A stretch of 27,291 bases of DNA from a virus, in the IMG/VR virus record IMGVR_UViG_3300025927_000419, positions 1 to 27,291 of that record; one strand, given 5' to 3'. A model generated the notes under the pieces. That model did not search any database, was not told the origin of the DNA, and saw only the letters and a list, made by a program, of their open reading frames with translations. Position numbers and translations under genes: made by a program. Positions 10,082-24,803 of this stretch are shown piece by piece (within the stretch, counting starts at the first letter, position 1; each line of letters opens with the position of its first letter).

Positions 10082-10656
10082 GAACCGACCCCGTAGGCGG
10101 CGTCGTCATTAGACAGGTAGTACCACGGCTTGCTTTTCCCGTCAGGGGTCAGCGCCGCCAGAGCCACCGGCAGCATCATCGCCGCGTTGCGGACCGCCTG
10201 GGTCTCGACGTCGCCGGTGATGTTGCACTTTTCGATCACGTAGCGATCCTTACGTTCGCCGTCGATCGTCTCCAGCACCGCCACCCAGTCGGTGAGCGGA
10301 TCGTAGTCGTTGGGCGGGTCGAACCTGTAGACGCCGGCTTTCGGTTCGCTCCACGAGCCACCGCCAAAGGCGAGCGCGACGGTATCGCGGTTCCACTGGG
10401 CGAGGCTGGTCGACGCGCCGAAGTCGCGTTTCGTGACGAGCTTGCGGGCAGCGGTCTGCTTCTGCCACACCATCACGTCCTCGACCTCTTCGCTCTTGTT
10501 GAACGTCACGCCGTCCTCACTGGCGAAGCCCACTTCGTTGAAGGCTTTGTCCAGCGCGGTTTCGACGTCGGTGGGGAGTTTCGGTTCGCTGTCGAATTTG
10601 GCCAGGTAGAGGCCGCCGTTGGCGGCAACCTTGATCTGTTCGGAATTCTGCGCCAA
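10078..10656 (-). CDS. Major tail protein (tail tube subunit)
   Basis: This 192-aa protein is encoded just before the frameshifted chaperone pair, the canonical place for the tail tube protein. The chosen start is TTG 10656, with a good AAGGAGG-type ribosome site upstream. The sequence is beta-rich with the features of tube proteins: an N-terminal Gly-Gly-Leu-Tyr-Leu strand, a Gly-Phe-Ala-Ser-Glu-Asp-Gly segment, a Val-Trp-Gln-Lys strand and a Tyr-Arg-Phe-Asp-Pro strand. It should polymerise into the tail tube around the tape measure. The start lies in a short inverted repeat (10648-10661), and two larger hairpins sit upstream, suggesting message-level control of a highly expressed gene. Confidence 0.88.
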   Translation of the reverse strand: MAQNSEQIKVAANGGLYLAKFDSEPKLPTDVETALDKAFNEVGFASEDGVTFNKSEEVEDVMVWQKQTAARKLVTKRDFGASTSLAQWNRDTVALAFGGGSWSEPKAGVYRFDPPNDYDPLTDWVAVLETIDGERKDRYVIEKCNITGDVETQAVRNAAMMLPVALAALTPDGKSKPWYYLSNDDAAYGVGS

Positions 10657-10661
10657 GGCAG
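10648..10661 (-). repeat. Inverted repeat over the TTG start of the major tail gene
   Basis: The minus strand reads CTGC, CTTGGC, GCAG: a perfect 4-bp stem whose loop holds the TTG start codon. It is one of five structural-gene starts in this window that fall inside a short inverted repeat. The stem is weak, so confidence that it matters is modest. Confidence 0.45.
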
Positions 10662-10682
10662 TACCTCCTTACGCCCTCCTTA

Positions 10683-10719
10683 GAGCAGGGCGGTTGATGA
10701 ACATGGAGCCGCCCTGCTC
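10683..10719 (-). repeat. Strong 11-bp hairpin upstream of the major tail gene
   Basis: GAGCAGGGCGG and CCGCCCTGCTC form a perfect 11-bp stem with a 15-nt loop. It ends just before the ribosome binding site of the major tail protein. No U-run follows on the minus strand. It could be an mRNA 5' stabilising element, a processing site or a weak terminator for messages from upstream. Confidence 0.75.
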
Positions 10720-11843: not shown

Positions 11844-12505
11844 CGGCCCTCCTTGAGCAGCGCTCGCATCGCCTCCGGTTTGCGACGAGCCTCCCAGTAG
11901 CGGCGCCTCAGCTTCCACGACTCTCTTGAGCCTTTGCGTCGACTCACTCTCGACTGCGGTGGATGCCAAAGGTGGACCAAGTCGGCCGTGCCTCGCCAGG
12001 GATCGCCGTACAACGCATTGAGGCCGAGCGCGTGGGCTTCATCGTCTTGCCCCCACCCCACGAACCGGCTGTCGAGTGGAACGTCTAGCAGAACGTCTCT
12101 GCGCGCCACGACTATTCCACCGCCGAGGATTCCTTCGTAGGGCTTTTGGTCCATGGGCTGCCCCCGCCAATCGGCACCCGCAAGCACGGCCTCTGTGCCG
12201 TCCTCAGAGAGCCGATGCACAAGCTTGTGCGGGACGGCCCACCCTGCGCCGGCCTCGACCGCGTCGACGGCCTCTCTGAGGCCATCGCACCAAACATCTG
12301 CGTCGGCTTGAATGACTATCTCGGCACGGCTCACCTCAATGGCCGGGTTCACCGCGCCGCCCTTGCACCATTCGCCCGGCGGCGCGCTAGCTCTAGTCAG
12401 TCGCCATCCCGGATACTGCTCGGCGTATCGCTCTCTAACCCACGCCCAGGCGTGCTCGCGATGGGGGCAACCAGGCCGCCAAGGGACGATGACTGCGACG
12501 GTCAA
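11825..12505 (-). CDS. Galactosyltransferase-like glycosyltransferase (GT-A fold, GT7-C-like)
   Basis: TTG 12505 shares TTGA with the previous stop, giving 226 aa; GTG 12529 is a longer alternative. The N-terminus Val-Ala-Val-Ile-Val-Pro-Trp-Arg is a GT-A nucleotide-sugar strand. Asp-Ala-Asp at ~68-70 is a DxD metal/sugar-nucleotide motif. Gly-Gly-Gly-Ile-Val-Val-Ala-Arg-Arg-Asp (128-137) followed by Phe-Val-Gly-Trp-Gly-Gln-Asp-Asp-Glu (148-156) is the hallmark of the galactosyltransferase C-terminal domain (Glyco_transf_7C). It is the last gene of the five-gene sugar cassette. The acceptor cannot be read from sequence; a virion protein or host surface glycan are the main options. Confidence 0.85.
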   Translation of the reverse strand: MTVAVIVPWRPGCPHREHAWAWVRERYAEQYPGWRLTRASAPPGEWCKGGAVNPAIEVSRAEIVIQADADVWCDGLREAVDAVEAGAGWAVPHKLVHRLSEDGTEAVLAGADWRGQPMDQKPYEGILGGGIVVARRDVLLDVPLDSRFVGWGQDDEAHALGLNALYGDPWRGTADLVHLWHPPQSRVSRRKGSRESWKLRRRYWEARRKPEAMRALLKEGRCPQSA

Positions 12506-13221
12506 GACATCTGGTACTCGCGCAAGCACACCCGCTTGTCATCCCAGAGGATCGACTGCAAATGCTCGCTGGCGTGAAATTGCCCGTCGTCGTGCTCAAA
12601 GTAGCGGGCTGCCCTGGCCGCGCGTTCGGCCGGGTTGGACCAGCCCAGGTGGATGAGGTCGATTGGGAGATGGCAGTGCCGGCCCAGGCGACGAAACATC
12701 CCAGCGACAGCAACCGGCTCTCGTGGACAGGCAAGCCGAAGGTCGACACGCGCGTGCCAATCGTCTCCGCGATCGTCGGGCACGCGGTAGAGGACCGGCG
12801 CCCACCGCGGCCGCCAGCCACCATCAACCCGGATCCTGGCTGGGTCGGTCTTCCACAGCTCGACCACCCGGAGCGCCCAAACGTCAAGCCGGGATGCTCC
12901 AAGATTCGCCTTGATGTCGGCGCCCTGCAGGACAAGCTCATCCGCATCAAGCGACAGGACATGTGTGGGCTCGCCCTCCAGAACGTGCTCAAGCAAGGCT
13001 TGCCGAACCGCTCCCTCGTGCCCTCCGTTCTGCGACCAGCCGGGACCTTCGAGGCGCTTGACGGCGACCCGTTCTTGCGCTTCCAGCCACTCAACGCCGC
13101 CGTCCTCGGAGCCGTTGTCAAGAACGCGCACTTCATCGCAGTAGGTCAAAGCATGCTCGACCGAGCGCTTGAGATAGCGGTCCATCTCGTTGCGGACGGG
13201 CATTGAGGCAATCAGCTTCAT
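12502..13221 (-). CDS. Family 2-type glycosyltransferase
   Basis: ATG 13221 overlaps the methyltransferase stop as ATGA and gives 239 aa starting Met-Lys-Leu-Ile-Ala-Ser-Met-Pro-Val-Arg-Asn-Glu, the classic GT2 opening. Asp-Asn-Gly-Ser-Glu-Asp-Gly-Gly (35-42) is the nucleotide-binding turn, and Leu-Asp-Ala-Asp-Glu (91-95) is the DxD motif. A late His-Leu-Gly-Trp segment also occurs in related bacterial enzymes. Predicted soluble, inverting, using a nucleotide sugar. Tightly coupled to the genes on both sides. Confidence 0.88.
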   Translation of the reverse strand: MKLIASMPVRNEMDRYLKRSVEHALTYCDEVRVLDNGSEDGGVEWLEAQERVAVKRLEGPGWSQNGGHEGAVRQALLEHVLEGEPTHVLSLDADELVLQGADIKANLGASRLDVWALRVVELWKTDPARIRVDGGWRPRWAPVLYRVPDDRGDDWHARVDLRLACPREPVAVAGMFRRLGRHCHLPIDLIHLGWSNPAERAARAARYFEHDDGQFHASEHLQSILWDDKRVCLREYQMS

Positions 13222-13748
13222 GCTCGCCTCCGCAACACGTAGATCTCTGATAGCTCTGAGGGCTGGGAGAGCGACTGGTATAGCTCCCAATCGTCGTCAA
13301 CGAATAGACCGGGCAGCTCGCCAGGCTCAAAGTCGCGGCGGTGGTATGGGTTCTGGCCCACCGTTGGGACCACGGGGCAGGAGAGGATGATCCAGCGCCG
13401 GGCGCGCTTGGCAGCGCGAACGTAGGCTGAGCAGTCCTCTAGATGCTCGATGGTCTCGAAACCGATGAAGAGGTCGAAGTCGAAGTCGGGTTCCCAGTTT
13501 TCGAGGTCCGCATTCCAGAAAGCCCACTGGGTCGGCTGCGGCACGTCGGCGAGGTCGCGATCGACCCCGTTGTACTGAAGCGGGCGCCCGGCAGCCAGGA
13601 GCGCCGCCCCGTAGCCGCCGCCACAGGCCGCATCAAGGATCTTGTCGCCACTTCGGCAGAATCCCGCCGCCAGCCGATACCGAAACTCATGCCCACGACG
13701 ATCGCCCTCTGGCGTCTCTGCGGTGATCCTCTCCCCCGGACCCGCCAT
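13218..13748 (-). CDS. SAM-dependent methyltransferase (class I)
   Basis: This 176-aa protein has motif I Leu-Asp-Ala-Ala-Cys-Gly-Gly-Gly-Tyr-Gly at 38-47, motif II Gly-Val-Asp-Arg-Asp at 61-65, and Phe-Asp-Leu-Phe-Ile-Gly-Phe-Glu-Thr-Ile-Glu-His-Leu as the post-II motif. The Phe-Glu-Thr-Ile-Glu-His-Leu form is typical of small-molecule or sugar methyltransferases (Methyltransf_11/23 type), and no DNA methylase motif (DPPY or PC dipeptide) is seen. Being inside a glycosyltransferase run, it probably O-methylates a sugar, which is inference. ATG 13748 follows the upstream stop by 1 bp. Confidence 0.85.
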   Translation of the reverse strand: MAGPGERITAETPEGDRRGHEFRYRLAAGFCRSGDKILDAACGGGYGAALLAAGRPLQYNGVDRDLADVPQPTQWAFWNADLENWEPDFDFDLFIGFETIEHLEDCSAYVRAAKRARRWIILSCPVVPTVGQNPYHRRDFEPGELPGLFVDDDWELYQSLSQPSELSEIYVLRRRA

Positions 13749-13749
13749 C

Positions 13750-14415
13750 TCAGTCTTCCCTTCGGTGGGCGCTTACTGTGACCCAGCCCATATCGCGGAA
13801 GGAGCGGGGTAGGACACCGGGCTCATAACCAAGGCGCCAGAGGCAATAGGGGAAGCTAACCTGGTCCTGCACGGACCAGGTCTCGACCTGCGAGGCCCAG
13901 AGTGCGCCAAGCTCGCGTACCTTCGGGTGCGTCATGTCTCGCGCCGACACGCCGCACTCGTAAAGCCCAAACCGCTCCGGGAAACCTTCGGAGCGATAGT
14001 GGGCCGCTTGCTCGCTGAGCGGCTCGTCCGCGTACTTGGCCGGCCGGATCGTCGCCTCGCCATACGCGCAGTCGCGGCCATCAAAGTGAGGAGAAACGGC
14101 CATGCCATCTGCGATGTGGCTGAGGAATTCTTGAACAAAAGCCGACGAGCAGATTGAGATGCCGCCGTCGACCCAGATCACGTAGCGATAGGCGGCCAGC
14201 TCGGGGATCGCATGTGGGTTCAGCTTCGGCAGCTTCGCCCGACGACGCGGGCCGCCCTCATGAGGAGGCAACAACAATGGTTGCCAGCCCGCTGGCGGCG
14301 CAGTCACCTCATCATGGAAGAAGAGGTAGTCAACGCCGTCCACGAAGACATCTGAGCGAGGGTGGTCATAATCACCGGCAACCGCAGTGACTACAGCCGT
14401 GTTGCTCACGTCCAT
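13750..14415 (-). CDS. DUF616 / TOD1-MUCI70-like glycosyltransferase
   Basis: A 221-aa protein with an N-terminal beta strand Ala-Val-Val-Thr-Ala-Val-Ala-Gly-Asp-Tyr-Asp, Ala-Lys-Leu-Pro-Lys-Leu-Asn-Pro-His (60-68), and Tyr-Val-Ile-Trp-Val-Asp-Gly-Gly-Ile-Ser-Ile (78-88). This order (Lys-x-x-Pro-His, then Trp-x-Asp-Gly) is that of the DUF616 family, now treated as glycosyltransferase-like. Tyr-Gly-Glu-Ala and Trp-Ser-Val-Gln-Asp-Gln further on fit the family. ATG 14415 is used; GTG 14409 would give a GTGA overlap like its neighbours. Function is inferred from family and cassette. Confidence 0.78.
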   Translation of the reverse strand: MDVSNTAVVTAVAGDYDHPRSDVFVDGVDYLFFHDEVTAPPAGWQPLLLPPHEGGPRRRAKLPKLNPHAIPELAAYRYVIWVDGGISICSSAFVQEFLSHIADGMAVSPHFDGRDCAYGEATIRPAKYADEPLSEQAAHYRSEGFPERFGLYECGVSARDMTHPKVRELGALWASQVETWSVQDQVSFPYCLWRLGYEPGVLPRSFRDMGWVTVSAHRRED

Positions 14416-15515: not shown

Positions 15516-15546
15516 GCGGGGAGAGGCCGCTAAAGCCTCTCCCCGC
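15516..15546 (-). repeat. 12-bp perfect hairpin just after the capsid gene
   Basis: GCGGGGAGAGGC and GCCTCTCCCCGC pair perfectly over a 7-nt loop, 12 bp past the capsid stop. It lies between the capsid and connector genes. There is no U-tract, so it is more likely an mRNA 3' stabiliser, processing point or partial terminator that keeps capsid message high relative to downstream genes. This is inference from structure and position. Confidence 0.8.
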
Positions 15547-15558
15547 ATTTGCCGACTG

Positions 15559-16530
15559 CTAGGAACCGACCTCGTCAAAGGCCGTGAAGTCGACCTTGAC
15601 GGCGCGGACGTTCTCTTCGGTGAGTGCACCGAATTCTTTGCTGTCCTCGACGAGGTCGCGGCCGTCCTCAACCGAGACAGCACCCGCGAACGCCGAGTAG
15701 ACCGAGCGATCACGGAGGTGGTCCGCGTCGTAGTCACGGATCCACCGCATCGCGAGGGAGTCAAACGTCAGCGTCGCGCCGGCCTTCGCACCCTCCGGCA
15801 CGACCGGGGCAACGTTGCCCAGGGCGAACGCGGTCGGGTGGAACGCCACCGCGAAGTCCGGGTCGATCGAGTTGCAGTTCCCGATCACCGTGAACCCAGC
15901 GATCCGGCCGATGACCGCCTCGCGCAGGACGCCATCGGTGCCCGACTTGTCGGCCTCCAGGAGGTGCTTGGACTGAAGCGCAGCTTCCTCGGCGTTAGCC
16001 CCGACCAAAAGGACACGACCCTCGGCGGGGACATTCTCGGTATTCAGGAACTTCCGGCACTTGGTGGCCGTGTGCCAGAACGACCGATCGTCCGCATCGG
16101 GATCGCCCTGTTCCCAGGTAACCGTGTGCCGGTATTTGGCGTCGGTTTCCATCGCGACCGCGACGTAGCTCTCCAGCTTCTCCGCAACTGCACGGATCTG
16201 CGGGCGGGCAACCTGTTCGCCCCACGAGTTGATGTCGAAGGTCATCTCCTCGTCGGTGATCTGAACGGCGCTGTAGGGGTGCTTGTCCAGCGTGATCGGG
16301 ACGCTGAACTCCTCAAGTTCATCCGTTTCGATGGCTTTGGTGCGCGTACGCCACTCGTACTCGCGAGCTTTGAGAATCGAAGGGATCTTGATGTCTACGG
16401 TGGTGTTTTTCGCACCCTTGTATTCATCAATGCCCTTCCGGGCAACGAGGCGGGGCAGGATCAGCTCGCGCTGCAGCAGACCCAGCCCCTGAGAGACGAG
16501 CTTCTCGGGGTTCAGGAATTTGTTCGCCAT
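15559..16530 (-). CDS. Major capsid protein (HK97 fold)
   Basis: A 323-aa protein encoded directly after the scaffold gene. An N-terminal helix, then Val-Asp-Ile-Lys-Ile-Pro (46-51), an acidic Glu-Leu-Glu-Glu-Phe segment, then Leu-Asp-Lys-His-Pro-Tyr-Ser-Ala-Val-Gln-Ile-Thr-Asp-Glu-Glu and a long helix with Pro-Gln-Ile-Arg-Ala-Val-Ala-Glu are typical of actinophage capsid proteins with the HK97 fold (P22 coat-like or Gp5-like subgroups). No long cleaved N-terminal delta domain is visible, matching the separate scaffold. ATG 16530 is preceded by AGGAG 9 nt away and lies inside an inverted repeat (16524-16536). Confidence 0.92.
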   Translation of the reverse strand: MANKFLNPEKLVSQGLGLLQRELILPRLVARKGIDEYKGAKNTTVDIKIPSILKAREYEWRTRTKAIETDELEEFSVPITLDKHPYSAVQITDEEMTFDINSWGEQVARPQIRAVAEKLESYVAVAMETDAKYRHTVTWEQGDPDADDRSFWHTATKCRKFLNTENVPAEGRVLLVGANAEEAALQSKHLLEADKSGTDGVLREAVIGRIAGFTVIGNCNSIDPDFAVAFHPTAFALGNVAPVVPEGAKAGATLTFDSLAMRWIRDYDADHLRDRSVYSAFAGAVSVEDGRDLVEDSKEFGALTEENVRAVKVDFTAFDEVGS

Positions 16531-16536
16531 TGGCGA
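16524..16536 (-). repeat. Inverted repeat over the capsid start codon
   Basis: The minus strand reads TCGCC, AAT, GGCGA: a perfect 5-bp stem around a 3-nt loop, and the ATG spans loop and stem. Directly upstream are GCGATCGC (a palindrome) and the near-palindrome CCTACCTATAGATAGG (16542-16557), which overlaps the ribosome site. Together they make the capsid leader highly structured. Confidence 0.65.
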
Positions 16537-16541
16537 TCGCT

Positions 16542-16557
16542 CCTATCTATAGGTAGG
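16542..16557. repeat. 16-bp near-palindrome in the capsid leader
   Basis: The plus strand reads CCTATCTATAGGTAGG. The two 8-nt arms match except at one position, which is a G/U pair in RNA. It overlaps the AGGAG ribosome site of the capsid gene on the minus strand. It could be an RNA hairpin controlling initiation or a protein-binding site. No convincing -35 element accompanies its TATAGA core. Confidence 0.5.
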
Positions 16558-16601
16558 GGTGACTCGCGAGCGACCGCCGATGACGGTTCGTGCGAGGTGA
16601 A

Positions 16602-17174
16602 CTAAAAGCCGCGAGGCACGGCCTCGGCCAACTTGGCCGGGTCCATCTCCTCGGGGTCAGTGACGCCAGTAGCGCCGGTTTTCGTTCGCTCTTTGGGCCG
16701 ACGCCTGGTCTCGGGCTGTTTGTCCTCTTCGGACTCTTCGCCGCCTTTGTCGTCGTCGTTTCGGAACGAATCGAGAAGCTCGTCAGCGTCAGCTTCAAGC
16801 TCCTCTTCGGTCTCACCAACCAAGCGCTTGGCCTGTACGTCAGTGAGCCCCTTTTTCAGTGCGACCCGCAGCCTTGCCGCTTCGGATTTGGCTGAAGCCG
16901 CTTCCTGCTCTGCCGTCGATGCCTTCTCGGTGAGTTTTTCGCTCTCCGACTTGTTGGCATCTTCGAACTCTTTGACCTTCTTCTCAGCCGCCTTGAGCTT
17001 CTTCTCAGCCGCCTTGGCCCGGTCCTCGTTCTTCCGGGACTTGGCCTGCCAGTCATCCTTCGGATCGACCGGGTCGGGCTCAGGAGTGGGCTCGGGGTCA
17101 GGGGCCGGCGTCGGATCAGGGTCGGGCTCAGGAGCCGGAGCAGGATCAGGCGTCGGGTTCGGGTCGTCGGCCAT
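16602..17174 (-). CDS. Scaffolding protein, acidic, Pro/Asp/Glu-rich N-terminus
   Basis: I start at ATG 17174 because GAAGGAGG lies 4 nt upstream; the frame is open further but without a ribosome site. The 190-aa product has a Pro-alternating tail (Pro with Asp, Glu, Ala, Thr) over residues ~4-37, a long charged helix rich in Lys/Glu/Ala (about 40-105), an acidic Asp/Glu segment, and a short basic Pro-Arg-Gly-Phe end. This layout just upstream of the capsid gene is typical of actinophage scaffolds. It should guide procapsid assembly inside the head and then leave or be degraded. No protease gene is seen beside it. Confidence 0.85.
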   Translation of the reverse strand: MADDPNPTPDPAPAPEPDPDPTPAPDPEPTPEPDPVDPKDDWQAKSRKNEDRAKAAEKKLKAAEKKVKEFEDANKSESEKLTEKASTAEQEAASAKSEAARLRVALKKGLTDVQAKRLVGETEEELEADADELLDSFRNDDDKGGEESEEDKQPETRRRPKERTKTGATGVTDPEEMDPAKLAEAVPRGF

Positions 17175-17180
17175 TCGGCC
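17169..17180 (-). repeat. GAAT-loop inverted repeat over the scaffold start codon
   Basis: The minus strand reads GGCC, GAAT, GGCC. The ATG is formed by the loop end and the first G of the second arm. It belongs to the same family as the sites at 21508-21519, 17194-17209 and 10740-10753. Confidence 0.6.
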
Positions 17181-17193
17181 TCCTTCTCTAGAC

Positions 17194-17209
17194 GGCACCA
17201 TTCGGCGCC
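17194..17209 (-). repeat. GAAT-loop hairpin upstream of the scaffold gene
   Basis: The minus strand reads GGCGCC, GAAT, GGTGCC: a 6-bp stem with one G/U pair. It repeats the loop of the start-codon hairpin about 25 nt downstream. No gene begins at its ATG. Confidence 0.6.
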
Positions 17210-17221
17210 GGGCTTTGGTCG

Positions 17222-17236
17222 TGCGCCCCGTTCGGG
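17222..17236 (-). repeat. 15-nt repeat shared by the scaffold and terminase leaders
   Basis: CCCGAACGGGGCGCA (minus strand) occurs here and again at 21537-21551 upstream of the small terminase gene. It contains its own short inverted repeat and is followed in both places by a ribosome site and a GAAT-loop start hairpin, 23 nt or 47 nt later. This suggests a duplicated leader element. Confidence 0.65.
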
Positions 17237-17288
17237 GCACACGCTCGGTCCTTGCGCCGCGTTAGGGCAGCGCGAAGCTCGTGCCGGA

Positions 17289-18035
17289 TTACTGTGCGTT
17301 CAGCTTCCGGCGGAAGGCGTTAAGAAGATCGTTGCGCGTGCCGCGCCGGAGTTCTCCGGCCTGCTCCGCCTCGAGCACCGCTTCGTTGTAGAGGTCGTGG
17401 TACTCGCGCGCTCGCCCCGGCCATTCTGATTTCCCATAGACGGGCTCGGCAGAGCAGCCGCAAGCATCGTGGGCTTCGAAGTCAACCGTGTCGGCCTTGT
17501 ACGCCGGCCCACGGGAGGCCAATAGCGCGCAAAAGGCGCACGGATCGCCATCCGTAACCCGTGCCCATCCCCGCGCTTCTTTGTCCTCGGCGACCGAACG
17601 CAGGATCGTCTCACGCCCACCGTTGAGCACCTGGCGCGTCACGCTCCCCGACGTTCGGGTAAGCGCCGCGTTGCGGGCGTCCTCTGGCGTTCGGCCGGCA
17701 GCTAGAGCCTTGGAGACCGATTCACGCCCGGTCACGTGCAGCCCGGCCACAACCTTGTCGGTGTCTATGGGGCCCGCGAGCCTCGTAACTGCCTCACCGT
17801 CGACACCCTCGGCTTGGCGAAAGCTCTGGAAGTAGCTCCCCGACAGGTTCGCCGAGAGGCCGTTGTATGCCCTCACCAAGACGATGGAAGCAAGGGCCAG
17901 TTTGCCGAAGGACTCTTCGTCGCCCTGCCAAATAGGCCAGAGCGCCAGGTAATCGCGGAGCGCCCGCGAGCGAAGCTGAAGCTGAGCTTGACGGTGTTGC
18001 TCGGTGAGGATGCGGCCAGCCGCAGTCCGAGCCAT
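17289..18035 (-). CDS. MuF-like minor head protein
   Basis: A 248-aa protein encoded directly after the portal gene: ATG 18035 follows the portal TAG with no gap. The N-terminal half is helical. The C-terminal half has Asp-Gly-Asp-Pro-Cys-Ala-Phe-Cys (Cys166, Cys169) and, after 20 residues, His189 with Cys192 and Cys194, a Cys/His cluster seen in MuF-type minor head proteins of actinophages. Such proteins sit near the portal, may enter the capsid and may help packaging or ejection. In many relatives this domain is fused to a capsid protease; no protease domain is recognisable here. A perfect TGCGGC/GCCGCA inverted repeat lies within codons 4-9 (18011-18024). Confidence 0.82.
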   Translation of the reverse strand: MARTAAGRILTEQHRQAQLQLRSRALRDYLALWPIWQGDEESFGKLALASIVLVRAYNGLSANLSGSYFQSFRQAEGVDGEAVTRLAGPIDTDKVVAGLHVTGRESVSKALAAGRTPEDARNAALTRTSGSVTRQVLNGGRETILRSVAEDKEARGWARVTDGDPCAFCALLASRGPAYKADTVDFEAHDACGCSAEPVYGKSEWPGRAREYHDLYNEAVLEAEQAGELRRGTRNDLLNAFRRKLNAQ

Positions 18036-19406
18036 CTACGCAGGGATTGGGTTGGGTTTGTTCTGGCGATCCAGGATCGCGGTGAGAGCGTCGAAGGAAT
18101 TGCCCTGTTCCGCAGCGGCCTTCCAGGCTTCGATGTCCTTTTTGGTCACGCCGGGAATCCGCTCCCACAGTTCCTGCGGCGGGACCTGGAGCATCTGGGC
18201 GATCTTCCCGAGACCGTCGACCGTGGCAGCGAAAGCGCGGGCGGAGGTATCGCGCCACTTCACCTCGGCATCAGCCGGAACGTCGACTCCCTTGGCGCAG
18301 CCGACCAACCAGAAGGTCTGCTCGTGGGACTCGCCGAGACTGGTATGGCGCTCACCTACCTTGCGATCCCGGCCAGCCTCTGCTGCTGCCAGCGCCTCAG
18401 CAGAGAGATTGATGAGCTCGCCAATTAGCTCATGGACTGGCGTTTGGGAGAGCGTCGCGGCGTGGCGAAGAGAGGCCTCCCGCGATTCGATGAAGCCTTT
18501 GAGATCAGTCTGGGTGAACTCCCCGACCTTGACCGCGTCTTCACCCTCCGAGGGCTCGTCTATCGCGAGGATTCGACCCGCCCCGACCTTGAGCGTCTCG
18601 GCCTCGGTCTCAGCGGTCCAGCCGATGATGTAGCGCTGCCGGAAGCCCGTGTAGTGCTGGGCTATCTGGAGGCCGAACGTGGTGAGGTCGATCTGGTCCT
18701 GAAGTGGCATGAGTGGGGCCACCTGGCCTCGCGTCGGCGGATACTGTTTGCCGTCTTCGGGCTCAACCTCGTCGTCTTCGTCTAGGTCGTGCTCATCCAG
18801 ATACCGAACCACCGGGCAGACACCCAGGCCGTGCTCGCGGGTTTCGATGAACTCGGCGGCCTTGCCTCTCGCGTCATCGAATTCGATGTGGTAGATCGCC
18901 TTGTCGTCGTAGAGCTTCCAGAGTCCGTTGCCGGCACGCTCAAGCGCCCACATCGGCCAATCCGGGTCCTCGCCGTACATGGTCATCAGGGACCGCGGCG
19001 AGACGCCCCGAATGACCGGCTCGGGGTCGCCGGGCAGGACGATCGCATAGGCCGCCCCGTAGGAATACGTCGCGCGATGGATAGCCGTCTGCCGGGCATC
19101 CATGCGATTGGCCTGCCACGCCTGCCACACATCCGTGTCTTCGTCGGCGCCTTTGGCCCGAAAACCCTCCACGAAGGTGGACTGCACGAGCGAATTGACG
19201 ACGATCGGCATGATGTTGACCCGCGAGCTGCGGGCCATCACGCGCACCTCTCCCGGCGTACCAACCGGGATCACGGCGGGCAACTTCTGCCGCCCCTTCA
19301 AGTAGCGACGGATCTGGTCCAACTGATCGCGCTCGGTGAGGTGATAGCCGTACAGGCGTTTGACTTGCTCAACGGCCTGGTCGCCGCTCAGTGGCTTATT
19401 TGCCAC
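18036..19406 (-). CDS. Portal protein (SPP1 gp6-like)
   Basis: A 456-aa protein between the large terminase and MuF genes. GTG 19406 follows GAGGAGGTAAGG. Features of the SPP1 Gp6-type portal family include the N-terminal Leu-Tyr-Gly-Tyr helix, Asn-Ile-Met-Pro-Ile-Val-Val-Asn-Ser-Leu-Val-Gln, Trp-Gln-Ala-Asn-Arg-Met-Asp, the Gly-Val-Ser-Pro-Arg-Ser strand, and a long helical stem after Leu-Gln-Asp-Gln-Ile-Asp-Leu-Thr-Thr. It forms the dodecameric DNA channel at one capsid vertex and docks the terminase. The start lies in a perfect inverted repeat (19391-19406). Confidence 0.92.
   Translation of the reverse strand: MANKPLSGDQAVEQVKRLYGYHLTERDQLDQIRRYLKGRQKLPAVIPVGTPGEVRVMARSSRVNIMPIVVNSLVQSTFVEGFRAKGADEDTDVWQAWQANRMDARQTAIHRATYSYGAAYAIVLPGDPEPVIRGVSPRSLMTMYGEDPDWPMWALERAGNGLWKLYDDKAIYHIEFDDARGKAAEFIETREHGLGVCPVVRYLDEHDLDEDDEVEPEDGKQYPPTRGQVAPLMPLQDQIDLTTFGLQIAQHYTGFRQRYIIGWTAETEAETLKVGAGRILAIDEPSEGEDAVKVGEFTQTDLKGFIESREASLRHAATLSQTPVHELIGELINLSAEALAAAEAGRDRKVGERHTSLGESHEQTFWLVGCAKGVDVPADAEVKWRDTSARAFAATVDGLGKIAQMLQVPPQELWERIPGVTKKDIEAWKAAAEQGNSFDALTAILDRQNKPNPIPA
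19391..19406 (-). repeat. Inverted repeat beginning at the portal GTG start
   Basis: The minus strand reads GTGGC, AAATAA, GCCAC: a perfect 5-bp stem whose first three bases are the start codon itself. The ribosome site is just outside the hairpin, so pairing would hide the start codon but not the ribosome site. Confidence 0.6.
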
Positions 19407-19418
19407 GTCCTTACCTCC

Positions 19419-21068
19419 TCAGCCAACATGCACTCGGCCGGTTCGCTTTCGGCGGCGACCCTTCTTGGTGAGCACTGCCCGTCTCGCCGAGCGTGCTAGG
19501 GAAGTCGAAAAGACTCCATCGACCTTGCGGGCCGACTCCCGGTGCTCCTTGCCCACCGACACGCCCCATTGATCCGGTCGGCGCCGGGCGTTGTGAAAGT
19601 GCTGGCGCACCATTGGATGCCCATCGTGTTTGAAAGCTCCCTCGACAACCTCGTCGTAGAGGCGCTCAACCTCGATGGTCGTCTCCTTCTTATGCACCCG
19701 CATGTCCCACGCAATTGCGTGTTTCGGCGAAGCCTTGACCACGTAGCCGCGCCCATATTTCTCAGCCCACTTGTCGACATAGGACTCGAGCGGATGCAGG
19801 TCGGAGCGGAAGGCGAGCACCTTGTAGCGGCCATGCGCCGCGTCGACCGCCTCGTCTAGCTGATCGCGTGGGATTTCCCCGCCGTATTTGGCCGGGTCCC
19901 AAGCGCGCAACGTGACCGTGTAGCCATCCTCGACCCTGCAGGCCGTCAGGACTGTGTGATCGTCGGACTTCGAAGGGTCAAGACCAAGGGTGACTTCATC
20001 GCCCTCTTCGAGCGGCTCGCCAGTCTCGCCGCCTTGCGGGCCAAGTGCGTCGTACTGGTTCGGTTCGATCCAAGCGTCCTCGGCCGCAACGATCTGGTTG
20101 AGGTAGAAGCGACGGGAAGACGACGGGCTATTGCGAGGGTCGTAGATCTCCTCGACATGGCGATCCTCATCAAGCCACTCGGAATCGCCCTTCGCCGCCT
20201 TAAGGCCGGCTCGCAGTTGGTCTTCATCGGCGAGGTCGATGCTGGGCGGTGCCTCGAGCGAGTCGTAGAGGAACCCTTTCGCCCGGGTCCGCCCCTGTTC
20301 GATCTGCTGCCATGCCTCCCAGTCATGCTCCGCGACTGAGTCCTCACCCGGCATGTGGGCGTTGGAGATCGCGAGCGCCCGGGCCGAGCCATCCCTCGAC
20401 TTGACGAGGTTGCGGTTGATGACCTCGGCCATCTTGTGGCCCTCGTTAGTCGAGAGCCAATGCTGCGTCTCGTTCTCAAGCGTGAAGCTTCCTCGCGCGC
20501 CCTCCAGCGCACGGGGTGAGGAGGTCACCGCATCCAGGCGGCGTTTGCCGCGGTTGGCATAGATGACCTCCTTCCCAAGGTCGATCGACTCCTCATCGAT
20601 CAACCGCGGGGAAAGAAGCGACGGGAACAGCGTCATCGTGTTCCGCGTCTGGTCGAGCGATACGGCGGCCGTCAGAACCCAGGCGGCGGGGTGCGTGATT
20701 GCAACTGGCTCGCCCTCGGCGTCCCATCCGCCGAATCTGCACGGGCCGACGAACTCGACGGCGCAGAGGGTCGCACCGACCGGGTCCTTGCCCCATCCCT
20801 TGACTCGCCGCAACATGCCGTTGCGATAGAGCCAGCGGCCAGTCTCATCGACGGCGAACCACCAGAGGATGAAGCGCGCCTGCTCGGGCGTGTACCTCCA
20901 GCGCTTCCCAGCTTCCGGCCCATCGGGTTGTAGCAAGTACTCCGCAGTCCACTGAAGGACCTGCCAGCCCAGCGTCTTCTCTGGTAGTAGCCAAGAGCCG
21001 CTCTCTGTGCGCTCCCAAGTTGGCCCGAGCGTTACCGGCTCAGCCAGTGAGCTCGCGGCGGTACTCAT
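19419..21068 (-). CDS. terL: Terminase large subunit
   Basis: I start at ATG 21068, 12 nt after GGTAGGAG; an upstream TTG at 21080 is too close to that site. The 549-aa ATPase-nuclease has a Walker A variant Lys-Gly-Trp-Gly-Lys-Asp-Pro at 90-96 (Lys94), as in many actinophage terminases. The Walker B region reads Phe-Thr-Leu-Glu-Asn-Glu-Thr (195-201), with Asn where Asp is usual. The C-terminal RNase H-like nuclease starts at Leu-Gly-Leu-Asp-Pro-Ser (Asp364, Asp369, Asp370). It cuts concatemeric DNA and pumps it through the portal. It overlaps the small subunit gene by 29 bp. Confidence 0.95.
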   Translation of the reverse strand: MSTAASSLAEPVTLGPTWERTESGSWLLPEKTLGWQVLQWTAEYLLQPDGPEAGKRWRYTPEQARFILWWFAVDETGRWLYRNGMLRRVKGWGKDPVGATLCAVEFVGPCRFGGWDAEGEPVAITHPAAWVLTAAVSLDQTRNTMTLFPSLLSPRLIDEESIDLGKEVIYANRGKRRLDAVTSSPRALEGARGSFTLENETQHWLSTNEGHKMAEVINRNLVKSRDGSARALAISNAHMPGEDSVAEHDWEAWQQIEQGRTRAKGFLYDSLEAPPSIDLADEDQLRAGLKAAKGDSEWLDEDRHVEEIYDPRNSPSSSRRFYLNQIVAAEDAWIEPNQYDALGPQGGETGEPLEEGDEVTLGLDPSKSDDHTVLTACRVEDGYTVTLRAWDPAKYGGEIPRDQLDEAVDAAHGRYKVLAFRSDLHPLESYVDKWAEKYGRGYVVKASPKHAIAWDMRVHKKETTIEVERLYDEVVEGAFKHDGHPMVRQHFHNARRRPDQWGVSVGKEHRESARKVDGVFSTSLARSARRAVLTKKGRRRKRTGRVHVG

Positions 21069-21513
21069 CGAGCGCCACAACTCCTACCGGCGTCTTGTCA
21101 GCCTCGCTGGCGCCAGCACGCTCTAGCTCGATCCCGGCTCGGCGCCGGTCGCCCTCTGACACCATCAAGGCGGTCATTGCTTTCAGGTATGCCGAGAGCG
21201 AAGCGCCCTTCATCGGCACCTTCTCCATCACGGCTTCGCCAGTCCGCTCCGCAATGCCAACTACCTGCGGTTCGAGGTCTCGGTGTATCGACTCGGCAAC
21301 GATCAGCGCCATCGCCCAATCCGAAGGCTCGTAGAACTCACTCTGGCCCGAGTCAGCCAGGGACTTGTACCAAGCCTTGGCAATCGGATGCCACTCACGT
21401 TTCGCCGCTGGCGGTTTGACGTTGGGGGCAGCCTTCCCCTTGGTCGGCTTCGAATCCTTGTTTCGGCGTCGGCGCTCCTGCGAGCGCTTCGGCGTTGGTC
21501 CGCGAGAGCCCAT
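21040..21513 (-). CDS. terS: Terminase small subunit
   Basis: A 157-aa protein with a strongly basic N-terminus Met-Gly-Ser-Arg-Gly-Pro-Thr-Pro-Lys-Arg-Ser, the typical opening of actinophage small terminases. It then has a Trp-His-Pro-Ile-Ala-Lys-Ala-Trp-Tyr segment and helices that would build the DNA-binding ring. ATG 21513 has GGGAGG 5 nt upstream and lies in a GAAT-loop inverted repeat. It overlaps the large subunit gene. It should recognise the packaging site and regulate the large subunit ATPase. Confidence 0.9.
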   Translation of the reverse strand: MGSRGPTPKRSQERRRRNKDSKPTKGKAAPNVKPPAAKREWHPIAKAWYKSLADSGQSEFYEPSDWAMALIVAESIHRDLEPQVVGIAERTGEAVMEKVPMKGASLSAYLKAMTALMVSEGDRRRAGIELERAGASEADKTPVGVVALDEYRRELTG

Positions 21514-21519
21514 TCGGGC
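21508..21519 (-). repeat. GAAT-loop inverted repeat over the small terminase start
   Basis: The minus strand reads GCCC, GAAT, GGGC. The ATG lies at loop and second arm. GGCCCGAATGGGC is also found at 10740-10753, and the shorter GGCCGAATGGCC at the scaffold start. Confidence 0.6.
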
Positions 21520-21686
21520 CTCCCTTTCGGTCTGCCTGCGCCCCGTTCGGGTGCGTCAGGCATGGTCAGGCGGCTCAGCAACCCCTCAAACAGGGGACGA
21601 GCCCAAACGTCAAAACCCGTACAGGTTCTCTGGTGCTATGGCTCCGGTCGGGTGGCCGCCAGGCGTTGGGGGTACCCCCCAGGGGG
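21514..21686 (-). promoter_or_regulatory. Terminase leader, 173 bp, no gene, several hairpins
   Basis: No coding frame is supported. It contains the palindrome GGGGGTACCCCC (21668-21679) just after the upstream gene, a hairpin CCCCT-CAAAC-AGGGG (21582-21596), and the 15-nt repeat CCCGAACGGGGCGCA (21537-21551 on the minus strand). TTGACG on the minus strand (about 21611-21616) resembles a -35 box, but no good -10 lies at the right distance. This is the best place for a late promoter or a terminator-antiterminator switch before the structural genes, though I cannot prove either. Confidence 0.5.
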
Positions 21687-23814: not shown

Positions 23815-24097
23815 GCTCACCTCCTCTTGTTGGAAGAGGGTGCTGCGAAGGGGCGCGCCGGCTCAGGGCTAGCCGACAGCGAGTCGTACGCCTCGCTTGA
23901 CCGGCGCATGAAGAAGCGGCCAGCAAAGACCCACCACCCAGGCTTTCGCCCTATGGGATGGGGGTCTTCGCTGGTCCGTTGTGCTCGCGGTGAGACGAGC
24001 GGAAGAAGCGGGCAGGTAGAGGGTGCGCACGTCACCGCCGCAGAGTGCAGCGGCTCTACCTGCCCTGGGCCTCGCAACCATTCGGCGAGTGCCTTAG
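23815..24097 (-). other. 283-bp gap without a convincing gene
   Basis: Two overlapping minus-strand frames (24081-23869 and 24077-23817) are open, but neither has a ribosome site or protein-like composition. The strongest content is the three-way-junction inverted repeat at 24010-24065. A further hairpin, CTCGC/GCGAG (24071-24089), surrounds an ATG. The gap may be a processed spacer next to tRNA-Gln. Confidence 0.55.
24010..24065 (-). ncRNA. Candidate structured RNA: compact three-way junction
   Basis: A perfect 12-bp stem (GGGCAGGTAGAG with CTCTACCTGCCC) encloses two small hairpins with no unpaired linker except one base. On the minus strand these are CCGC-8 nt-GCGG and GGTG-7 nt-CACC. All 56 nt are accounted for. 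It lies 33 bp downstream of the tRNA-Gln gene. It could be a terminator, an RNA processing element, a small RNA or a protein/DNA cruciform site. The strand is assigned from neighbours only. Confidence 0.55.
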
Positions 24098-24170
24098 ATC
24101 CGGGGGCAAGAATTGAACTCGCATCTCACGGTCCAGAGCCGTGCGTCCTGCCTGGTTGGACTACCCCGGA
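24098..24170 (-). tRNA. tRNA-Gln (CTG)
   Basis: The minus strand folds into a full cloverleaf of 73 nt. The acceptor TCCGGGG pairs perfectly with CCCCGGA, the D stem is GTCC/GGAC with GG in the loop, the anticodon stem is CACGG/CCGTG with loop CTCTGGA (anticodon CTG, reads CAG), and the T arm is GCGAG-TTCAATT-CTTGC. The discriminator is T and CCA is not encoded. Phage tRNAs usually offset codon-usage differences with the host. Confidence 0.93.
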
Positions 24171-24178
24171 GTGAAGCT

Positions 24179-24679
24179 CTATGCGGCCTGTGGCGGTGGG
24201 TAGGTGAGGCTGACTTTGCCGCGAGCGGCAGCTTCGGCTTGTGCGATGGCAGCGGAGTCCAGTCTGGTGGTGCTGCTGTTTTCCTGGCTGGGCAAAACGA
24301 TAAGCCCTGCCGACTTCGCGTCCTCACGCTGGCGGGTCAGCGCATCCCCAGCCACTACCGCGTAAGCGTGGCGGGCGTGCTGATAGGCAGCCCAGGTTTG
24401 CTGAACGGCCGTGTCGAGCGCCTCGATCTGAGCGCGTAGCGGGTCGCTCATCTCCTCCTCGGAGATGTCATCGAAGCCGGCTCGCTTCTTGCAGGCGATG
24501 GAGAACGAGTCCGATGCAGCGGTCGCTGCCTGTCCGAGCAAGCGAACAGTCGATGCGAGACCGCCATACAGCAGGATCTCGGCTTGAGTCACTTTGGGCT
24601 CGGGTGCCCACTTCGCCTCGCCGCCTACAGCTACCAAGCGCGGGGCGTCTCCTACCTCTGGTCCTTCGTGCTGGCTCAT
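24179..24679 (-). CDS. Hypothetical helical protein, 166 aa
   Basis: ATG 24679 has a perfect AAGGAGG 5-6 nt upstream, which decides the start over longer options. The protein begins Met-Ser-Gln-His-Glu-Gly-Pro. It is mostly helical: Ala-Glu-Ile-Leu-Leu-Tyr-Gly-Gly-Leu-Ala, a segment with Gln-Ile-Glu-Ala-Leu-Asp-Thr-Ala-Val-Gln-Gln-Thr-Trp, and a later Ala/Gln-rich helix. It ends with Tyr-Pro-Pro-Pro. Flanked by two tRNA genes. No family recognised. Confidence 0.8.
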   Translation of the reverse strand: MSQHEGPEVGDAPRLVAVGGEAKWAPEPKVTQAEILLYGGLASTVRLLGQAATAASDSFSIACKKRAGFDDISEEEMSDPLRAQIEALDTAVQQTWAAYQHARHAYAVVAGDALTRQREDAKSAGLIVLPSQENSSTTRLDSAAIAQAEAAARGKVSLTYPPPQAA

Positions 24680-24716
24680 CCCAACCTCCTTCGGGTCGTT
24701 TATGGGTATGGCCAAG

Positions 24717-24803
24717 CGGAGGGGGCAGGAGTCGAACCTGCAAGCGGCCGTGAAGCCGCTACGCCCTTAGCAGGGGCGCTGACTCGCCAGTGTCAGCCCT
24801 TCC
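24717..24803 (-). tRNA. tRNA-Ser (GCT), slightly degenerate
   Basis: The minus strand gives an 87-nt serine-type cloverleaf with a long variable arm (AGCGGC/GCCGCT). The anticodon stem CGCCC/GGGCG has loop CTGCTAA, anticodon GCT. The T arm is GCAGG-TTCGACT-CCTGC. The acceptor GGAAGGG/CCCCTCC has one A-C mismatch. The normally conserved U8 appears to be C and the D stem may extend into that place (CTGAC/GTCAG). The class is clear, activity less so. Confidence 0.8.

Follow-up and report, generated by a model that had tools for sequence, protein, structure and literature searches.

Genes at the locus and the scaffold-capsid leader

The window analysed here is the whole 27,291-base stretch of the IMG/VR virus record IMGVR_UViG_3300025927_000419 (63% GC), and the element under study is the leader located between its scaffold and major capsid genes. 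Its head and tail genes lie on the minus strand and follow one another as small terminase, large terminase, portal, MuF-like protease, scaffold, major capsid and adaptor, with the major tail protein further on. The closest relatives of the window were environmental phage contigs; the cultured phages linked to it through the capsid protein infect actinobacteria, and bacterial genomes, which were queried by the capsid protein only, contributed two loci. Individual relatives are designated by L and a number. The coordinates of the features are given in Table 1.

Table 1. Features of the scaffold-capsid leader and short inverted repeats at gene starts in the window
Feature	Position	Strand	Remarks
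Major capsid gene	15559-16530	minus	PHROG 283, E 3e-58; gene regulated by the putative switch
Scaffold gene	16602-17174	minus	PHROG 1793, head scaffolding protein, E 5e-22; upstream of the putative switch
Scaffold stop codon TAG	16602-16604	minus	71 nucleotides (nt) to the capsid start in the window; median of 65 in relatives
P1 hairpin	16563-16596	minus	starts 5 nt past the scaffold stop; CTCGC-AC-GAACC-GTCATC-GGCGGTC-GCTC-GCGAG
P2 left arm	16568-16585	minus	CGTCATCGGCGGTCGCTC; P1 loop and P1 3' strand; pairs with 16525-16542 in the minimum free energy fold of the leader
P2 right arm	16525-16542	minus	GAGCGATCGCCAATGGCG; 3' half of the Shine-Dalgarno, spacer, start codon and codon 2
Capsid ATG start codon	16528-16530	minus	within P2
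Shine-Dalgarno AGGAG	16540-16544	minus	partly within P2; from sequence
Small terminase repeat	21508-21519	minus	GCCC-GAAT-GGGC; from sequence
Portal repeat	19391-19406	minus	GTGGC-AAATAA-GCCAC; from sequence
Scaffold repeat	17169-17180	minus	GGCC-GAAT-GGCC; from sequence
Short capsid repeat	16524-16536	minus	TCGCC-AAT-GGCGA; from sequence
Tail repeat	10648-10661	minus	CTGC-CTTGGC-GCAG; from sequence
Adaptor-start repeat	start 15499	minus	TGCC-CGCTCAT-GGCA; sixth repeat, absent from the initial annotation

Two predicted, mutually exclusive folds at the capsid start

The start of the major capsid gene lies in a structure (16525-16596) longer than the short repeat, in which the start pairs with leader sequence some 50 nt upstream and not with the adjacent short arm. 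The first fold, P1, has in the window the outer stem CTCGC/GCGAG and a loop, GTCAT, that faces the capsid start codon, and it folds alone at -15.5 kcal/mol. The pairing of the left arm of the second fold, P2, gave a z score of -5.1 against shuffled leaders. Across the relatives the P1 outer stem is CCGC/GCGG, or CTCGC/GCGAG close to the window, with a much conserved CGC/GCG core, while the inner stem is variable (GACC/GGTC, GGTC/GACC, GGCC/GGCC, CGTTC/GAACG, TCCCTC/GAGGGA). Since the P1 inner stem and the outer half of P2 share one strand, the two folds, which are not nested, are mutually exclusive in the inner stem; the start region copies one P1 strand, as in L059, where GGTCACC is found in P1 and again before the start.

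Of 30 leaders, 29 preferred P2 over P1, the mean difference in model energy being 8.3 kcal/mol, so that the capsid start is computed to be closed at equilibrium. Single-sequence folding of many relatives paired the capsid start codon with the leader at a probability above 0.9. In four of six leaders (the window, L059, L064 and L093), partition functions calculated for growing transcripts had P1 forming before P2, which appeared when the start had been made. Leader length (median 65 nt) and loop position were nearly constant across the relatives, the loop base that faces the start being found at a median of 22 nt after the scaffold stop (9-32, n = 45).

Comparative support for P1 and P2

The inverted repeat at the capsid leader has a different sequence in each phage, as illustrated by the arm pairs CATTGGTGGTC/GACCACCAATG (L006), CGCCATTGGTGGTCC/GGATCACCAATGGCG (L005), GGTCATGGG/CCCATGGCC (L003) and GTTCACGGTGGT/ATCACCGTGAAC (L033). 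Pairing was assessed with an arm-swap test, in which the upstream arm of each leader was matched with its own downstream arm and with the downstream arms of other relatives, a design that preserves base composition as well as the Shine-Dalgarno and codon constraints. For P2, own arms averaged -19.9 kcal/mol and swapped arms -15.9 kcal/mol in 60 leaders (0/10000 permutations), and a set of 138 leaders gave z = -14.8, whereas five control regions (later capsid codons, scaffold end and linker) yielded z values between -2.3 and +1.6. Long-range pairing of the start comparable to that of the capsid gene was found at none of the other 12 genes (13 tested; four of them had five or fewer relatives and are little informative). 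P1 behaved as P2 did, with -16.7 kcal/mol for own and -13.3 kcal/mol for swapped arms (0/10000).

An independent test set of 80 leaders was obtained from two further scans; these leaders had less than 85% identity to the earlier ones and were not chosen for pairing. The P2 swap z score was -10.2, and strong matches between loop and start numbered 26 against 5.0 expected. P1 own arms again exceeded swapped ones (-17.5 vs -14.1 kcal/mol, 0/5000), and the extension of P2 into the Shine-Dalgarno spacer, which had not been used for selection, was above swapped values (P = 0.002).

Pairs were counted on 45 ungapped, loop-anchored leaders (29 distinct from discovery and 16 from the test set), because the MAFFT alignment A2 shifts ATG-type against GTG-type leaders by one column. 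In these, 82.9% of the P2 cells were paired, compared with 67.2% when shuffled and 34-51% when the arms were slid by 1 to 3 positions; the covariation score was 0.460 (shuffled 0.187, standard deviation 0.017), and cells changed on both sides numbered 102 vs 37, at 11 of the 13 pairs. The 45 leaders were partly picked by pairing, and the unselected swap tests (60, 80 and 138 leaders) carry more weight. Taken as sequence comparisons, these results indicate that both predicted folds are supported by compensatory change. As a point of method, the exchange of arms between relatives distinguished a genuine structure from repeats that arise by chance in GC-rich DNA.

Covariation with the start codon

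In the 30 discovery leaders the start codon and the loop base facing it occurred as ATG-U (n = 11), GTG-C (n = 17), GTG-U (n = 1) and ATG-G (n = 1), a significant association when kinship is ignored (P = 3e-7). On the capsid protein tree the start codon changes at least nine times; among eight independent contrasts, the facing base moved in the same direction in seven or eight and never the other way (sign test, P = 0.008-0.016). Three pairs of sister rows (L053/L054, L065/L063 and L225/L231) each place an ATG-U leader next to a GTG-C one. The loop also tracks changes in codon 2: GTGAG/CTCAC (L075), GTGTC/GACAC (L056), GTGCC/GGCAC (L045) and GTGAA/TTCAC (L047). Test-set leaders picked on seven other positions comprised 13 GTG-C, five ATG-U, five ATG-C and no GTG-U (P = 0.007), most of the ATG-C cases belonging to one group with a shifted register. 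The alternation of ATG and GTG at the capsid start would, as these patterns suggest, reflect tracking of the pairing partner.

Short inverted repeats at gene starts

The initial annotation had proposed that short perfect inverted repeats around the start codons of several virion genes form a common translational control system for late genes. A sequence check of the minus strand found all five of the listed repeats, and the adaptor-start repeat in addition (Table 1). Repeats with perfect arms, a loop of 3-8 nt and a span covering the start codon were then counted against a background of 938 ATG/GTG/TTG triplets of the coding strand. Arms of at least 4 bp were present at 6 of 16 starts, vs 4.1 expected from the 25.6% of internal triplets that have them (binomial P = 0.21), and arms of at least 5 bp at 2 of 16 (1.6 expected, P = 0.47); a first version of the test, with shuffled flanks, gave P = 0.12. 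Folding from -30 to +30 showed starts to be less structured than internal triplets (means of -17.4 and -19.8 kcal/mol). The short repeats as a class are not above chance, being about as frequent around internal codons, which is what the annotation itself had named as refuting it.

In relatives, the arm-swap test was null for the short hairpins of the small terminase (P = 0.57), portal (P = 0.83) and capsid (P = 0.13) genes and weak for the tail gene (P = 0.06). Among the ten genes tested, that of the scaffold gave P = 0.005 for its hairpin. Near relatives share the same hairpin arms (AGGAGGCC...ATGGCC), which offer no covariation to count; being invariant, their pairing is indistinguishable from a Shine-Dalgarno plus alanine-codon constraint. 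Common control of late genes by short start-codon hairpins is accordingly very improbable: the repeats exist and one of them passes a swap test, against a count at chance level and four of five repeats without comparative support. What persists of the proposal is that a start codon placed within an inverted repeat may serve translational control, which is strongly supported for the major capsid gene and not for the other late genes. Loss of pairing in relatives, the other outcome named as refuting, was seen for the short capsid repeat and not for the long capsid structure.

A motif, CCGAAYGG, was also considered as a start-linked element. The minus strand holds every one of its seven exact copies (3.2 expected; seven were reached in 2 of 100 shuffles), but there is no excess when one mismatch is allowed, and several copies are hairpins between genes and not start elements; the motif was rejected. 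Intercistronic hairpins with C(GAAN)G tetraloops were observed on the minus strand at 17194-17209, 17221-17242 and 21536-21556, ahead of the starts of the scaffold and small terminase genes, and their stems show compensatory changes in relatives, e.g. GGCGCTGAATAGCGCC (L075), GTCCCGAACGGGAC (L006) and GTGTCCCCGAAAGGGGGCGCAT (L002). The small terminase leaders of more distant relatives (L016, L017, L018, L019 and L022) often have the Shine-Dalgarno in the loop of a small hairpin, NCC(CAGGA)GGN, with varying arms (GGCC, AACC, GCC), a layout that recalls the start-associated sequence (SAS) of cluster K mycobacteriophages. At the major tail gene, a hairpin CGCCCT...AGGGCG lies immediately 5' of the Shine-Dalgarno (about 10670-10695, minus strand), and similar hairpins with other loops were seen in L002, L006, L011 and L025.

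Proposed mechanism and alternative explanations

We consider it likely, from the conservation of both pairings, that the leader between scaffold and capsid acts as a bistable RNA switch closing the major capsid start, a judgement that leaves its trigger aside. Synthesis of the most abundant virion protein would then probably be under RNA-switch control. P1 would form right after the scaffold stop, and its loop together with one inner-stem strand would alternatively pair, as P2, with the Shine-Dalgarno flank, the start codon and codon 2. With P1 finished before the start region is transcribed, nascent RNA would pass through an open state in which ribosomes may load; RNA that is unoccupied or older would refold by strand exchange beginning at the loop, shutting the start. 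With the start computed to be closed at equilibrium, it would have to open transiently or on a signal. As the trigger we tentatively favour a kinetic window on the nascent RNA; delayed folding as in the maturation gene of the RNA phage MS2 would agree with the energies and with the order in which the RNA is made. A ribosome terminating at the scaffold stop is possible in this role, the binding of a protein, for instance capsid or scaffold, doubtful, and some other trigger improbable.

Several observations weigh against such a switch. The energies are model values computed without ribosomes or proteins, the 30 discovery leaders had their loops anchored by hand, and in growing-transcript folding L041 and L053 show no clear P1 stage. 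L044 and L063 pair poorly, and a strong match was present in only about a third of the test-set leaders. The cultured Mycobacterium, Arthrobacter and Curtobacterium phages examined lacked this leader structure, and most of the Streptomyces phages examined carry a different hairpin and have a free capsid start. A sealed start on the gene of the most abundant virion protein is, moreover, counter-intuitive.

The same leader could be read in other ways. Translational coupling, in which the ribosome terminating on the scaffold gene sits on the 5' strand of P1 and so chooses between P1 and P2, is possible if on the unlikely side; P1 starts a few nt past the scaffold stop and the loop base keeps its distance from it, although this spacing could also stem from a compact leader, and the predicted sign (a blocked P1 favouring the closed P2) is the reverse of that in ordinary coupling. 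A protein-gated operator, with capsid or scaffold protein binding P1 or P2 and feedback setting the scaffold-to-capsid ratio, has models in the MS2 coat protein, which acts at the replicase start, and in T4 gp32 and gp43, which act on their own mRNAs. The leader sits exactly between two genes whose ratio matters, and the core of the P1 outer stem is much conserved; loop and inner stem, however, vary widely in sequence with pairing kept, leaving little to recognise outside the outer stem, and we regard this reading as rather doubtful.

An element for mRNA processing or stability, whose stems protect or expose an RNase site, would be in keeping with the intercistronic hairpins common in this genome, yet covariation with the start codon itself is not predicted by it, which makes it improbable. 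No minus-strand site resembling an intrinsic terminator (GC-rich hairpin and U run) was found in 16400-17300. Long imperfect inverted repeats are also typical of operators, and a protein could bind this one on the DNA, as an operator or promoter. That arms differ among relatives with complementarity kept, that two exclusive pairings of one strand are sensible only for RNA, that G-U outnumber A-C combinations on the mRNA strand (30 vs 15) and that no sigma-70-like promoter was found at the leader make action at the DNA level extremely improbable.

Distribution of the capsid leader structure

The structure was found in the cultured Microbacterium phages Footloose and vB_MoxS-R1, and in environmental phages down to about a third of capsid protein identity; the phage Attoomi was marginal. 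The capsid protein of vB_MoxS-R1 (L095, NC_070775 gp49) is named major tail protein in RefSeq, likely a misannotation. A strong hairpin of another kind was observed in the scaffold-capsid gap of the Streptomyces phages L079, L081, L082, L086 and L094. A broader claim, held as a less than even prospect, is that a widespread and undescribed class of strand-exchange RNA switches governs capsid production throughout a large group of double-stranded DNA (dsDNA) phages, the start codon being one switch strand and the loop complementarity being kept by selection through ATG-GTG exchanges. Such a class, if real, may time capsid relative to scaffold synthesis without a ligand. The scaffold/capsid balance in tailed phages is an old question, and a switch between both genes would make it directly testable in the two cultured Microbacterium phages.

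Other features of the window

The putative small terminase (21040-21513) matched PHROG 226, which is annotated as minor tail protein, likely a misannotation. Between the capsid stop and the adaptor start, a strong 12-bp hairpin (GCGGGGAGAGGC/GCCTCTCCCCGC, 15516-15546, minus strand) was observed, with altered sequence in L002, L004, L005, L006, L007 and L029; it is terminator-like and lacks a U run. Several genes without a clear virion role occupy 12435-14415, between the adaptor and tail genes; by eye, their translations include methyltransferase- or glycosyltransferase-like proteins, and 13218-13748 had no PHROG match. Genes for tRNA-Gln and tRNA-Ser are located at 24097-24803 on the minus strand.

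Comparison with known systems

The capsid leader had no match in Rfam, and no description of such a switch in tailed phages was found in the literature searched, which covers the field very incompletely. RNA that occludes a start and leaders that are metastable are mechanisms already known, and a use of them at the capsid gene of a tailed phage is apparently undescribed in that literature. As in switches that sequester the ribosome-binding site, the start region is predicted to pair with the leader, with compensatory change, and the alternative fold that would free the start, P1, appears to be conserved as well. In toehold riboregulators, strands are exchanged between exclusive helices at the ribosome-binding site, as proposed for the capsid leader; those are designed and driven by an RNA in trans, while the capsid leader carries the two strands on a single natural RNA.

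The SAS and the extended start-associated sequences (ESAS) of cluster K are likewise inverted repeats close to gene starts in actinobacteriophages. The SAS has one set sequence of 13 bp, GGGATAGGAGCCC, found just upstream of starts near non-structural genes, and the ESAS repeats, upstream of SAS, have a consensus sequence, with little support found by the authors for hairpins in the mRNA (PMC3203893). The capsid leader, by contrast, varies in sequence with pairing kept and belongs to a structural gene, that of the major capsid protein. SAS matches in the window were at chance level (13 with up to three mismatches, vs 11.9 expected), none at the starts discussed, which bears out the earlier remark that the repeats differ in sequence from the cluster K elements.

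The aapA3 and hok toxin mRNAs also govern their ribosome-binding site through sequential exclusive folds (PMC6733600), although they belong to toxin-antitoxin systems that involve antisense RNA and 3' processing, and the transient hairpins of aapA3 close the site instead of opening it. The MS2 replicase operator similarly places a start site in a hairpin of phage mRNA (PMC6071253); it is one local hairpin bound by coat protein, unlike the long-range pairing and alternative fold of the capsid leader, which has no known protein. The two-fold logic proposed for the capsid leader is found in the leader of the MS2 maturation (A) gene, where a stable structure shuts the start and a shorter, transient hairpin of the nascent RNA leaves it open (PMC6733600, PMC6071253). 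That leader lies at the 5' end of an RNA phage genome and serves the maturation protein, whereas the capsid leader is intercistronic in a dsDNA phage and serves the capsid gene; in the latter, unlike in MS2, the start codon itself would pair with the loop of the transient hairpin.

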